A DNA stretch of 64,000 nucleotides from Mycolicibacterium diernhoferi (GTDB taxonomy: Bacteria; Actinomycetota; Actinomycetes; Mycobacteriales; Mycobacteriaceae). A program made the translations under genes and the position numbers. The notes under the pieces were generated by a model that did no database searches, was not told where the DNA came from, and saw only the letters and a list, made by a program, of their open reading frames with translations. The stretch lies in NCBI RefSeq assembly GCF_019456655.1, contig NZ_CP080332.1:5580001-5644000 (forward strand), in the 5' to 3' direction. Below are positions 58,686 through 64,000 of this stretch, piece by piece. The first letter of the stretch is position 1. Each line of letters starts with the position of its first letter.

Positions 58686-59765
58686 TCAGGGCTTCAGGTG
58701 CGCGACCTGGGGCAGCACCTTGGTGCCGACGAGTTCGAAGCTGCGTCGGTAGACGTCCGGGTTGTCGGTGTACTCGTGGCCGAAGGAGATCAGCGAGCCG
58801 AAGCCGCCGACCTCGTTGTACAGCTCCTCGATCTTGGCGGCGACAGTCTCCGGCGAACCCACGAAGTGGAAGTTGTCCACCATCCACTCGGCGGACAGCT
58901 CCTCCAGCGTGATGGTGCCGCCGGTCATCATCTCGCCGATGCCGAGCTTGATGAAGGTGGGGATGTTGTAGTTGCCCCACAGATCACCCATCGCACCGTT
59001 GAGGTAGCCCTCGCGTGCCTCCTCGTCGGTGTCGGCGACGAACACGTCGCGACAGATGCGCCAGTCGGCCCGGTTGGGCGTGTGACCGGCGGCCTCGGCA
59101 GCCTCGGCGTAGGTGGCCCAGTGCTCCTTGAGCACCGAGTTGTGCACCTGCTGGCTCATCGGGAAGTAGCCGTTGCGACCGGCCACGGCCAGGGTCGGCG
59201 ACTTGGCCTGCATGCCGGTCATGATCACCGGGATGCGCTCCTGCTTGGGCACCAGGTGCGGTCCGTGGATGTCGTCGTCGTAGGCCGGCATGTCGACGGT
59301 CCAGTACTTACCCTCGATCCGGAACGGTCCCTTCTTGGACCAGATGCTCTCGATGATCTCCAGCGCCTCGGTCATCATCTCCGGGTTCTGCTTACCGGTG
59401 TTGAAGAGCTGAGCGTCACTGGGGAACGCGCCGGGAGCGAAGCCCGCGATGTAGCGTCCCTCGGTCATGTGGTCCAGCCACATGATGCGGTGCGCCAACG
59501 CGATCGGGTTGTGGTAGGCCAGCAGGTGGGCAGCGGCGCCGAGCTTGATCTGCGAGGTGATCTGCGAGGCGGCCGCGATCATCGCGTCCGGTGCCGGGCT
59601 GGGCTCCCCACCGAGGGTGTAGTGCTCGGCAAAGTAGGCCTCCGACCAGTTGTACTCATCCGCCCACTTGGTCAGCGTCAGGTCCCAGTCGATGACCTGC
59701 TTGGCCGTGCGCTTGCCGTGTGAATAGGCGCGCGAATAGGGGATGTTGAAGATGCCGAACTTCAT
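58686..59765 (-). CDS. LLM-class flavin-dependent monooxygenase
   Basis: 359 residues of the luciferase-like, TIM-barrel monooxygenase family, using reduced FMN supplied by a separate reductase. MKFGIFNIPYSRAYSHGKRT at the start, HLLAYHNPIALAHRIMWLDHMTEGRYIAGFAPGAFPSDAQLF (the flavin-site region) and MTGMQAKSPTLAVAGRNGYFP match limonene-monooxygenase/alkane-type members. RBS GGAAGGA 7 nt before the ATG. It is divergent from the TetR gene, with two copies of a shared palindrome between them. The partner flavin reductase is encoded 1.4 kb away. The substrate is unknown. Confidence 0.88.
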   Translation of the reverse strand: MKFGIFNIPYSRAYSHGKRTAKQVIDWDLTLTKWADEYNWSEAYFAEHYTLGGEPSPAPDAMIAAASQITSQIKLGAAAHLLAYHNPIALAHRIMWLDHMTEGRYIAGFAPGAFPSDAQLFNTGKQNPEMMTEALEIIESIWSKKGPFRIEGKYWTVDMPAYDDDIHGPHLVPKQERIPVIMTGMQAKSPTLAVAGRNGYFPMSQQVHNSVLKEHWATYAEAAEAAGHTPNRADWRICRDVFVADTDEEAREGYLNGAMGDLWGNYNIPTFIKLGIGEMMTGGTITLEELSAEWMVDNFHFVGSPETVAAKIEELYNEVGGFGSLISFGHEYTDNPDVYRRSFELVGTKVLPQVAHLKP

Positions 59766-59852
59766 CTCGGTGTCCTTCCGTAGGGGTGTGCGGAGATATC
59801 GGGAAACCTTGCCGCCATGGGGATCTGCCCCTGCTTGACGCGACTCGCACTT

Positions 59853-59870
59853 TTCGTACATTTGTAGAAA
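59853..59870. promoter_or_regulatory. TetR-cluster operator, copy a
   Basis: TTCGTACATTTGTAGAAA; right half is the consensus TGTAGAAA and the center TACATTTGTA is conserved. It is 88 bp upstream of the LLM start codon. Confidence 0.7.
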
Positions 59871-60027
59871 CAACGCGATAGCGGCCAACGTAGCGACGCG
59901 GTGGCGCGGGTGTCAACAGCTAGGACGAAGAAATCTTCTGTTTACATAAGTCAACGGGCACAGGGGAATTCGCTCTGCACCGCACGATCATCCAGGTCAG
60001 TGCGACTTGCGCCGCGCTGACCTGCAC

Positions 60028-60045
60028 TTTCTACATTCGTAGGGT
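60028..60045. promoter_or_regulatory. TetR-cluster operator, copy b
   Basis: TTTCTACATTCGTAGGGT; left half is the perfect consensus TTTCTACAT. It is 76 bp upstream of the TetR start and likely mediates autoregulation. Confidence 0.7.
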
Positions 60046-60120
60046 TCTGCATGGCGCTCACCCGGGTGCCGGTAATGGTTGCGGTACCCTCACCAAAACA
60101 CGCACAGTCAGGAGTCGACG

Positions 60121-60753
60121 GTGAAGAGATCGGGCAGCCGCTCAGAGGCGACCGCCATGGCCCTCGTCGAGGCCGCACTCCAGATCATCCGCGAATCCGG
60201 GGTCAAGAGCGTCACACACCGCAAGGTGTGCAGCTACGCCGGCGTGGCGCTGGGTAGCAGCACCTATCACTACGAGAACCTCGACAACCTCATTCTCGAT
60301 GCGTTCGCGCATTACGTGGAGCGCGTCTCGGTCCGCTACGAGAACCACTTCGAGGGCGCAACCTCGGACGATGACCTGGTCGACGCGATTCTCACGCTGG
60401 TCAACGCGATGACGACCGATATGGGCAATGCGATTCTGGAATGGGAACTGCTGGCCGAGGCCGGCCGCCAGGACGCATACCGGGAACTCGGCCACAAGTG
60501 GTCCAGTCGGGCTCGCACGGCGGTCGAACGCTACGTGTCGCCGAGGGTCGCCCACATGCTGGAGACGATCTGGGACGGGTCCACCGTGCATCGGGTACTC
60601 AATGGCACCGAACTGGACGACGCCGGCCTGCGTGAGCTCCTCAAAGCCACCCTCGCGCTGGACCCCGCCAGGGGCTATCCGCGTCGGCAGGAAGCGGCCA
60701 AGCCGGCGAAAAAGCCTACAAAGAAGGCGGCTACCAGGCGAAAGGCCTCGTAG
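60121..60753 (+). CDS. TetR-family regulator of the monooxygenase/SDR cluster
   Basis: 210 residues. The HTH is at about residues 10-60: ALQIIRESGVKSVTHRKVCSYAGVALGSSTYHYENLDNLILDAFAHYVERV. A helical ligand domain follows, ending in a Lys/Ala-rich tail (AAKPAKKPTKKAATRRKAS) that could add nonspecific DNA affinity. GTG 60121 has AGGAG about 7 nt upstream; the frame to 60079 is not supported. Divergent from the LLM gene and convergent with the cupin gene. Confidence 0.85.
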   Translation: MKRSGSRSEATAMALVEAALQIIRESGVKSVTHRKVCSYAGVALGSSTYHYENLDNLILDAFAHYVERVSVRYENHFEGATSDDDLVDAILTLVNAMTTDMGNAILEWELLAEAGRQDAYRELGHKWSSRARTAVERYVSPRVAHMLETIWDGSTVHRVLNGTELDDAGLRELLKATLALDPARGYPRRQEAAKPAKKPTKKAATRRKAS

Positions 60754-63260: not shown

Positions 63261-63278
63261 GTCACTCCTACCTGCTTT

Positions 63279-63296
63279 TTCCCACATTTGTAGGAA
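63279..63296. promoter_or_regulatory. TetR-cluster operator, copy d
   Basis: TTCCCACATTTGTAGGAA: near-palindromic, with the conserved center CACATTTGTAG. It is 19 bp upstream of the SDR start codon, overlapping the region where a promoter is expected. Confidence 0.65.
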
Positions 63297-63460
63297 TTGA
63301 GTGCACGGTACGGATGCGCGCCGCCGCTGTCAATGGCTTCCCGAGAAGTTGCAATCCTGCTGTTGGCCAACAGTATTACGTTCATGTGAACCGGCGCCTG
63401 CCGCTTCGGCGCCTCGTTGACACTCGCGCCTATTCGTGGTTATTGTCGGCTGGATCACAC

Positions 63461-63478
63461 TTTCTACATATGTCCACA
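63461..63478. promoter_or_regulatory. TetR-cluster operator, copy e
   Basis: TTTCTACATATGTCCACA: the left half TTTCTACAT is perfect, the right half diverges after TGT. 111 bp upstream of the second SDR gene. Confidence 0.6.
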
Positions 63479-63588
63479 TTCGGGTCGCGGCGCCAGCCAT
63501 CCGCTGGCAGCATTCCCGGATATCCGAAGCGGGCGGTCACCGACAGACCGTGGCGCACTGGACATCACAGAGATAAGGAACACTCAGC

Positions 63589-64000
63589 ATGACGACTCCT
63601 CGCCGACTTGTCGGACGCATCGCACTGATCACCGGTGGCAGCAACGGCCAGGGCGCCGCCCACACCCGCCGGCTCGCCCAGGAAGGTGCCATCGTCTACT
63701 TCTCCGACGTCGACACCAAGACCGGCTCCGCACTGGAGGCGGCGCTGCGCGCAGAGGGCCTCGACGTGCATTTCCGCAAGCAGGACGTCAGCAGCTTCGC
63801 GCACTGGCAGGAGATCGTCTCCGAGATCGACGCTGATCACGGGCGGCTGGACATCCTGGTCAACAACGCCGGTATCGCGGATCTCTACGACGCCGAGCAG
63901 GCCACCGAAGAGTCCTGGCAGCGGATGATCGACATCAACCAGAAGAGCATCTGGCTTTCCTTCAAGGCCACCGTCCCGCTGCTGCGCAAGAGTGACCACG
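63589..64000 (+). CDS. Short-chain dehydrogenase, 5' part
   Basis: 137 codons are visible; the gene continues past the right edge. ITGGSNGQGAAHTRRLAQEGA is the cofactor site, DVDTKTGSAL the NAD-specificity region, and LVNNAGIADLYDAEQATEE the NNAG motif. The catalytic Ser/Tyr/Lys lie outside the window. Unlike its divergent neighbour it has no mycofactocin-type insertion, so it is a classical SDR, perhaps a hydroxysteroid- or 3-oxoacyl-dehydrogenase-type member. ATG 63589 with AAGGA upstream. Confidence 0.85.
   Translation, partial: MTTPRRLVGRIALITGGSNGQGAAHTRRLAQEGAIVYFSDVDTKTGSALEAALRAEGLDVHFRKQDVSSFAHWQEIVSEIDADHGRLDILVNNAGIADLYDAEQATEESWQRMIDINQKSIWLSFKATVPLLRKSDH

Follow-up and report, generated by a model that had tools for sequence, protein, structure and literature searches.

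The genes at the end of the window (the whole 64,000-nucleotide stretch of Mycolicibacterium diernhoferi DNA analysed here) very probably form a regulon controlled by a TetR-family regulator, judging from comparison with related genomes. Our main reading, to which we give a probability of roughly 0.6, is that this regulon is catabolic and serves to take up a small amine, in this organism perhaps an amino alcohol, and to oxidise it with O2. Among the literature matches listed, there was no paper on this system.

Gene cluster and palindromic sites

The features of the cluster are as follows (no strand is assigned to the operator copies).

58686..59765, minus strand: LLM (luciferase-like) FMN-dependent monooxygenase, 359 aa (PF00296)
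59853..59870: candidate operator copy 1, on the LLM side of the divergent promoter shared by LLM and TetR; matches the consensus, with counterparts in L044 and L062, both close relatives
60028..60045: candidate operator copy 2, on the TetR side of that promoter and the weakest of the five (TTTCTACATTCGTAGGGT; four mismatches to TTTCTACATNTGTAGAAA; matrix score 21.1)
60121..60753, plus strand: TetR-family regulator that probably represses the regulon (PF17940; PDB matches are TetR-type regulators; co-occurs with the operator in a comparison of 20 genomes)
60770..61084, minus strand: small EutQ-like cupin, 104 aa (PF05899, 3.5e-18)
61116..61619, minus strand: flavin reductase that probably works with the LLM (PF01613, 1.3e-44)
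61660..61677: candidate operator copy 3, flavin reductase/RibB-like divergent promoter; matches the consensus
61734..62390, plus strand: RibB-like protein, predicted to fold like DHBP synthase but lacking its catalytic residues (PF00926; AlphaFold2 and Foldseek)
62400..63260, minus strand: SDR1, mycofactocin-type SDR (TIGR03971)
63279..63296: candidate operator copy 4, SDR1 side; matches the consensus
63461..63478: candidate operator copy 5, SDR2 side; matches the consensus
63589..64000, plus strand: SDR2, a second SDR, truncated at the window end and complete to 64359 in window numbering
64411-65655 in window numbering, outside the window: EutH-family permease, next after SDR2 (PF04346)

Profile searches bore out the identities that the earlier note had proposed for the LLM, TetR, cupin, flavin reductase, RibB-like protein, mycofactocin-type SDR and second SDR. 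SDR1 scores 393.2 bits against the mycofactocin-coupled SDR profile TIGR03971, above its cut-off of 300. The flavin reductase is of the HsaB type, with a score under the HsaB equivalog cut-off. The permease, the sole PF04346 protein of the genome, is above the Pfam gathering cut-off (346.1 bits; cut-off, 25) and below that of the NCBIfam EutH equivalogs (best, 486.7 bits; cut-off, 575).

All five palindrome copies described previously (59853, 60028, 61660, 63279 and 63461) were confirmed. Four of them carry two to three mismatches to TTTCTACATNTGTAGAAA, with 0.00 expected from 100 shuffles, and the site at 60028 was missed by the consensus search. Copy 3 overlaps a promoter-like −10 element (TATGAT). 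A matrix made from the five sites scores the same sites at 21.1–28.9, a circular result; its maximum is 8.2 over window positions 1–58000 and 18.4 in 300 shuffles of 7.1 kb. Genome-wide, seven distinct sites have at most three mismatches, four of them inside the 3.6 kb of the cluster, and the reversed-pattern control gave one match per strand. When the 6.0 Mb genome was searched with a refined consensus at two mismatches, five sites were found: three in the cluster (copy 4 falls outside this limit), one before a distant SDR gene and one before a Rieske oxygenase gene; the reversed refined consensus gave none. The density test named in the earlier note, of whether the motif is equally frequent at random loci, left the regulon idea unrefuted. 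The palindrome is real and specific.

Candidate operator and TetR across genomes

Twenty genomes were compared, 12 with the LLM and this TetR and 8 without the TetR. The refined consensus is present in all 12 of the former (42 sites in total) and absent from all 8 of the latter, one of which retains the LLM. Cluster genes or their homologues adjoin 38 of the 42 sites, and four sites lie away from cluster-type genes. We also compared 37 LLM loci with 10 outgroup loci. A site scoring at least 15 was found at 20 of the 22 loci with a TetR homologue and at 3 of the 15 without one, counts that are not independent because the loci are related by descent.

The sequence of the operator also changes with its regulator. 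Position 6 of the half-site is T in 33/52 cases where the TetR is at least 64% identical, A in 18/20 where identity is 46–56%, and A in 31/36 in the lowest identity class, which spans TetR identities of 32% up to slightly less than 46% (L048). The operator drifts with TetR divergence. The counterparts of copy 2 in L044, L045 and L062 are weaker sites. No operator site was found at the Leucobacter locus L072, which has a 34% TetR homologue, and the best site at L088 reaches only 14.0, while L075 and L124 have sites of 16.9 and 16.0 with no such TetR within the stretch examined. The proposal that one palindrome and one co-occurring TetR define a shared regulon is well supported by comparison, since the predicted operator both tracks the presence of the TetR and drifts with its divergence.

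The distant site in the same genome that precedes an SDR gene (SDR3) scores 25.0. Relatives of SDR3 with 61–62% identity are found within the LLM neighbourhood at L053, L054 and L055, and its orthologues occur in 6 of the 13 LLM genomes and in none of the 7 others. Comparison supports SDR3 as a putative member of the regulon. No operator was found near the SDR3 gene of G166, and G135, itself a close relative, has no SDR3.

Two further sites bear on how the LLM might act on an amine. Site 5755470 is upstream of the Rieske oxygenase gene, whose product has a carnitine monooxygenase as its best structure match (5e-21); this gene is present in 1 of the 20 genomes, and the site is therefore without comparative support. 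In G041, the gene for a homologue of trimethylamine dehydrogenase (2e-225 to 1djn), which has a PotD-like gene next to it, is preceded by an operator-like site. Both would suit the same regulon if the LLM hydroxylated the carbon beside the nitrogen, leading to N-dealkylation with no Baeyer-Villiger step, and the SDRs oxidised the released aldehyde or alcohol. Aminopolycarboxylate monooxygenases remove N-alkyl groups by such a hydroxylation. However, the LLM matches the NtaA/DmoA family weakly (35.8 bits against a cut-off of 279.7), and we regard N-dealkylation as rather unlikely.

Among other off-cluster sites, that at 884108 overlaps the end of one gene and is about 115 bp ahead of the next, and that in G135 (C7) is at the start of a gene; both are provisionally taken as chance. 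Another is G014:C2:122717. The cluster of G014 is on two contigs, with operators on both and both parts at contig ends. As the two parts may adjoin across an assembly gap, a split regulon was dropped and this two-contig arrangement was not used as evidence.

Probable substrate class and proposed chemistry

An amine-type transporter is found near the LLM at 30 of the 37 loci and at none of the 10 outgroup loci; the queries used detected none at the other 7. In relatives, the EutH-family permease is replaced by amino-acid or amine permeases or by a polyamine-type (PotABCD-like) ABC system. Neighbouring genes in some relatives encode class III aminotransferases, aldehyde and glutamate dehydrogenases, or an APH-type kinase and amine oxidase; L053 has an APH-type kinase with a PRK06148-type PLP protein, and in L072 the LLM, an SDR and a EutH permease lie in a row. 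These neighbourhoods suggest that the substrate is probably an amine, and we consider the odds about even that it is an amino alcohol in this genome. We do not favour ethanolamine as the sole substrate, since eutBC and an ethanolamine permease are already encoded at another locus (the only EutB is at 1396205), where no operator was found. EutBC ammonia-lyase was not found alongside the cluster permease.

The transporters also bear on whether the system is purely protective. TetR regulators often govern detoxification, and in G166 a site identical to the consensus is flanked on one side by a LysE-type exporter gene and on the other by the MFS domain of the following gene, as might be expected if TetR sensed a toxic amine or aldehyde that the enzymes removed without supporting growth. 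However, EutH, APC and PotD-type systems, which usually serve uptake, dominate near the LLM, and the aminotransferase and dehydrogenase neighbours point to catabolism. Detoxification alone appears very improbable.

The earlier note had envisaged a dedicated oxidative pathway for terpenoid or alicyclic compounds. An oxidative catabolic function remains a reasonable reading of the gene set, but the substrate assignment was not supported. Under that proposal, the SDRs of the same regulon would oxidise a terpenoid or alicyclic alcohol to a ketone, which the LLM would convert to a lactone as in camphor breakdown. The solved structure nearest to the LLM is indeed 3,6-diketocamphane 1,6-monooxygenase (4uwm, 4.6e-55; 2.3e-71 with the family profile), matched over nearly the full length. 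SDR1 is nearest to chains named carveol dehydrogenase and SDR3 to a cyclohexanol dehydrogenase, and the LLM of Rhodococcus opacus is labelled limonene 1,2-monooxygenase in one record. However, the carveol dehydrogenase names are depositors' labels, the transporters linked to the LLM are of the amine type, and no lactone hydrolase, epoxide hydrolase or CoA ligase was found by Pfam among the cluster genes. A terpenoid or alicyclic substrate is therefore improbable.

A flavin reductase is near the LLM at 24/37 loci (3/10 in the outgroup) and the cupin at 20/37 (0/10). SDRs are found at 33/37 loci but also at 10/10 outgroup loci, and RibB-type proteins at 11/37 and 4/10; because both also occur at outgroup loci, their association does not discriminate.

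We propose the following scheme for amine catabolism. Comparison supports its starting points, namely the palindrome, the joint occurrence of the operator with TetR and the cluster genes, and the SDR gene at a distance; that the system is repressed and induced, the class of its substrate, the sequence of steps and the Baeyer-Villiger chemistry are what we infer. When the substrate is absent, TetR would sit on the palindromes and shut the divergent promoters and the distant SDR gene, and the substrate or an intermediate would release it, causing induction. The EutH-family permease would import the compound, the SDRs would convert its hydroxyl group into a carbonyl by oxidation, and the LLM, supplied with FMNH2 by the flavin reductase, would insert oxygen next to this carbonyl. 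Such an insertion would yield an unstable amino-ester that breaks down to acid, aldehyde and ammonia. The Baeyer-Villiger step, proposed by analogy, is tentative.

The RibB-like protein keeps the DHBP-synthase fold in its AlphaFold2 model (Foldseek). It lacks the DREN(E)GD loop, the GHTE histidine and the CE glutamate, which we take to be the active-site elements of DHBP synthase, as compared with the sequence of a mycobacterial RibB structure and with the RibB that this genome encodes (L114 in full; L115 and L116 in part). The same residues are missing in the RibB-like proteins of relatives, and canonical-looking RibB is found near more distant LLM genes in L059, L095 and L098. As the catalytic residues are missing, a plain flavin-supply role is not favoured. 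Riboflavin breakdown by an LLM riboflavin lyase was considered and tentatively set aside.

More speculatively, and with considerable doubt on our part, the cluster may represent an undescribed B12-independent, O2-dependent route for vicinal amino alcohols, in which an SDR forms an aminoketone or aminoaldehyde that is cleaved by a flavin-dependent Baeyer-Villiger reaction. Leucobacter (L072) would have a minimal form of the route; mycobacteria, Gordonia and Rhodococcus would add to it a RibB paralogue that has lost the synthase active site and acquired another function, such as binding or sensing an intermediate of the pathway or catalysing a different carbonyl reaction. If true, it would add O2-dependent, B12-free use of such compounds in actinobacteria and a second context for EutH. 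A RibB fold stripped of its catalytic residues beside this enzyme set in three genera poses a question for enzymology. The defined operator, candidate repressor and short gene set make the system directly testable, and the search for its substrate moves from terpenes to amines.

Comparison with known systems

Among type II Baeyer-Villiger monooxygenases, 3,6-diketocamphane 1,6-monooxygenase works with the flavin reductase Fred (PMC6352141). The cluster resembles this system in the near full-length LLM match, the presence of a separate small flavin reductase gene and, as a working idea, the oxidised carbonyl substrate. Unlike the camphor enzymes, which take bicyclic diketones, the LLM here goes with EutH or another permease of the amine type and with a RibB-like protein, under putative control by TetR. 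In the pdc cluster of Caenibius tardaugens, an LLM was shown to perform Baeyer-Villiger oxidation of progesterone (PMC12239570). That cluster, too, is small and catabolic and includes regulator genes, but it acts on a steroid and the flavin reductase gene is elsewhere in the genome.

The EutH-family permease and EutQ-like cupin domain recall the classical eut system, but the cluster is without EutBC, and the eutBC of this genome lies elsewhere with its own permease and no operator. The limonene degradation (lim) cluster has an epoxide hydrolase beside an LLM monooxygenase, unlike the cluster genes by Pfam. In lux-rib operons, a RibB gene likewise stands beside luciferase-family genes; unlike these, the RibB-like protein here lacks the synthase catalytic residues. 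In the plasmid clusters of R. opacus PD630 (L124 and L125), the TetR is not matched by the cluster TetR at 1e-8, an APC permease and a class III aminotransferase replace EutH, and the motif is weak (16.0). They nevertheless share the RibB-like protein, flavin reductase, two mycofactocin-type SDRs, LLM, SDR2 and cupin; the RibB-like frame of L124 is interrupted, and L125 has the complete set.

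Palindromic sites and the TetR gene

Five copies of an 18-bp palindrome had been reported in the earlier note, and a sequence search of the window bore out their positions at 59853, 60028, 61660, 63279, and 63461, with at least one copy in every one of the three divergent promoter regions. Four copies differ by two to three mismatches from the consensus quoted there (0.00 expected), and the copy at 60028 has four mismatches. Promoter-like matches number three in 5.4 kb versus 0.6 expected. The copies at 61660 and 59853 each share bases with a promoter-like -10 element (consensus match only), an arrangement that appears compatible with repression.

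The genome of Mycolicibacterium diernhoferi (6.0 Mb, single contig C1, with the window at 5580001-5644000) has seven distinct sites within three mismatches of the quoted consensus, four of which are in the cluster. A consensus derived from relatives, TTTSWACAWWTGTWSAAA, gives five sites with up to two mismatches: three in the cluster, one before a distant third SDR gene (SDR3, 3192671), and one at 5755470. The reversed TTTSWACAWWTGTWSAAA control gives no site in this genome at the same threshold. The site at 5755470 (G000:C1:5755470-5755487, L012:5471) is located approximately 140 bp upstream of one likely start for a Rieske oxygenase gene. This oxygenase is weakly similar to carnitine/glycine betaine monooxygenases and is present in one of the 20 genomes compared; a 73% paralogue lies approximately 13–15 kb away in the same genome.

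An LLM monooxygenase orthologue (at least 59% identity) is encoded by 13 of the 198 genomes that represent the genus. These 13 were compared with seven genomes that we picked, none of which has an LLM match better than 8e-43. A TetR orthologue (at least 38%) accompanies the LLM gene in 12 of the 13 genomes and is absent from G149; two of the seven non-LLM genomes have only 28% TetR matches. The earlier note had proposed a shared regulon under one palindrome and one TetR protein, and this comparison supports it: TTTSWACAWWTGTWSAAA sites are confined to the 12 genomes with both genes (12/12; one to six each, 42 in total), and none is present in the other eight, including G149. The reversed control over all 20 genomes gives a single site in each of G041 and G009. 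By inspection, 38 of the 42 sites adjoin cluster genes or their homologues, counting that on G041:C112 (L171:317), which adjoins a PotD-like gene and precedes the gene for a homologue of trimethylamine dehydrogenase (PDB 1djn, 2e-225). The remaining four are the site at 5755470 and those in G166:C9, G135:C7, and G014:C2:122717. The G166:C9 site (L168:6525), with zero mismatches, has a LysE-type exporter gene on one side and the MFS domain of the adjacent gene on the other, and possibly marks an extra regulon member in one relative. When the MFS ORF is called from its first start, the site falls inside it. The two-contig layout in G014 carries no weight in this assessment.

SDR3 orthologues occur in 6 of the 13 genomes with LLM versus none of the seven without it. 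Using a matrix derived from the window's own five sites, a site scoring at least 14 was found within the same 3.8 kb as SDR3 in four of the six (own, G041, G087, and G109). SDR3 of G033 ends a same-strand gene run beginning after a site (L054), and in G166 no such site was found with SDR3 (3.8 kb; score at least 14). SDR3 relatives (61–62%) sit in the LLM neighborhood in loci L053, L054, and L055.

We also compared 37 core loci with LLM identity of at least 52% (16 from the G-numbered genomes, 19 of 52 named loci, and two plasmid loci) and 10 outgroup loci with 36–39% (two, seven, and one, respectively). Of the named loci, 11 were omitted as copies of contigs already included and 15 were unused (the fragment L089, plus L091, L092, and loci that are more distant); L125 was omitted as a near copy of L124. 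A TetR homologue is present in 22 of the 37 core loci. Sites scoring at least 15 occur in 20 of these 22 (not L072 and L088) versus 3 of the 15 loci without TetR (Fisher 2e-5, which is too small because the retained loci include close kin, e.g., L055/L074 and L079/L080/L109). The three are L046 (TetR on another contig), L075 (short scaffold), and L124. The outgroup loci have neither a TetR homologue nor a site scoring at least 15 (best 13.4). Half-sites were taken from sites scoring at least 14 (26, 10, and 18 sites by TetR class; L072 and L088 yielded none). The half-site core seen most often is CTACA where TetR is at least 64% identical (22/52 half-sites), CAACA at 46–56% (9/20, followed by GAACA with six), and GAACA below 46% (19/36). 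The predicted TetR-controlled regulon is strongly supported by these comparisons.

Transporters and substrate class

The cluster continues beyond the window end as follows.

5643589-5644359, + strand: SDR2, complete, extending past the window end
5644411-5645655, same strand as SDR2, downstream: EutH-family permease (PF04346, 3.1e-103)

This permease is the sole PF04346 protein found in the genome, and its family name would suggest an amino alcohol as substrate. The ethanolamine ammonia-lyase gene of this genome (1396205) lies behind a different permease (531.8 bits, above the ethanolamine permease cut-off of 381.75), with no site scoring at least 12 in the surrounding 4.3 kb. Among named records, Mycobacterium aurum has the closest full cluster (LLM 96%, EutH 98%).

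Amine-type transporters lie within 9 kb of LLM in 30 of the 37 core loci versus none of the 10 outgroup loci (Fisher 4e-6, again too small owing to close kin), and the terpenoid substrate suggested in the earlier note is not favored. The 30 loci comprise EutH (6), APC permease A (10), APC permease B/Rhodococcus type (11), and a PotD-like system (3); the same queries found none of these within 9 kb in L075, L079, L080, L081, L087, L109, and L126. EutH loci occur in Mycolicibacterium, Gordonia amicalis (L088), and a Candidatus Leucobacter sulfamidivorax MAG (L072), where LLM, SDR2, and EutH are consecutive. SDRs (33/37 core, 10/10 outgroup) and RibB-type proteins (11/37, 4/10) near LLM are non-discriminating.

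Rhodococcus opacus PD630 has two cluster copies with an APC permease and a class III aminotransferase. These copies (L124 and L125) are very similar and on two plasmids; L124 has an interrupted reading frame for the RibB-like protein, and in L125 the permease annotation is split into two pieces. L053 also encodes an APH-type kinase, which together with a class III PLP protein of the same locus matches the two ends of PRK06148/06149; such pairs generally act as kinase and phospho-lyase on amino alcohols. L057/L058 also have an amine oxidase and a sugar-acid-type kinase, but lack TetR and the motif. NAD-glutamate dehydrogenase flanks the cluster in L062 and is near it in Gordonia L088; in L064 it follows the APC permease, both being on the same strand. 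In the window, its gene (55478-58618) adjoins the cluster. Taken together, the transporters and the aminotransferase, kinase/PLP, amine oxidase, and glutamate dehydrogenase neighbors favor an amine as the probable substrate.

The RibB-like protein

61734-62390, + strand: RibB-like protein, DHBP-synthase fold without catalytic residues

The structural model has a DHBP-synthase fold (mean pLDDT 81), and all 46 PDB matches (E ≤0.001) are DHBP synthases or RibBA/RibBX proteins. Compared with the RibB of the same genome (over its full length for L114, in part for L115 and L116), three elements that are catalytic in RibB are missing: the DREN stretch, the histidine of GHTE, and the glutamate of CE. 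The same losses are found in Mycolicibacterium, Gordonia, and Rhodococcus relatives, and GTGISA.DR and RPGH are kept. The protein is encoded near 11 of the 37 core LLM genes. A similar degenerate copy is present in outgroup locus L060, and canonical-looking RibB lies near the more distant LLM genes of L059, L095, and L098. It is reasonable that the protein was recruited for flavin supply and then lost this activity. Degenerate copies recur next to LLM genes in three genera.

Proposed LLM chemistry and relation to known systems

The LLM protein aligns across nearly its full length with 3,6-diketocamphane monooxygenase, the sole solved structure matched at 1e-30 (family profile). Diketocamphane enzymes and luciferases are grouped as type II BVMOs (PMC6352141), and an LLM converts progesterone to testosterone acetate (PMC12239570). 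On the strength of this similarity, grouping, and precedent, we propose a pathway by analogy: the permease would take the substrate in, an SDR would oxidize it to a carbonyl, LLM and the reductase would turn the carbonyl into an ester, and the ester would break spontaneously or by hydrolysis. N-dealkylation by LLM in place of ester formation is a serious rival.

A literature search, with most subscription journals outside its scope, did not find this system among the matches listed. TetR-controlled catabolic regulons are known in kind, and the predicted system would be a variant with a type II BVMO-like enzyme.
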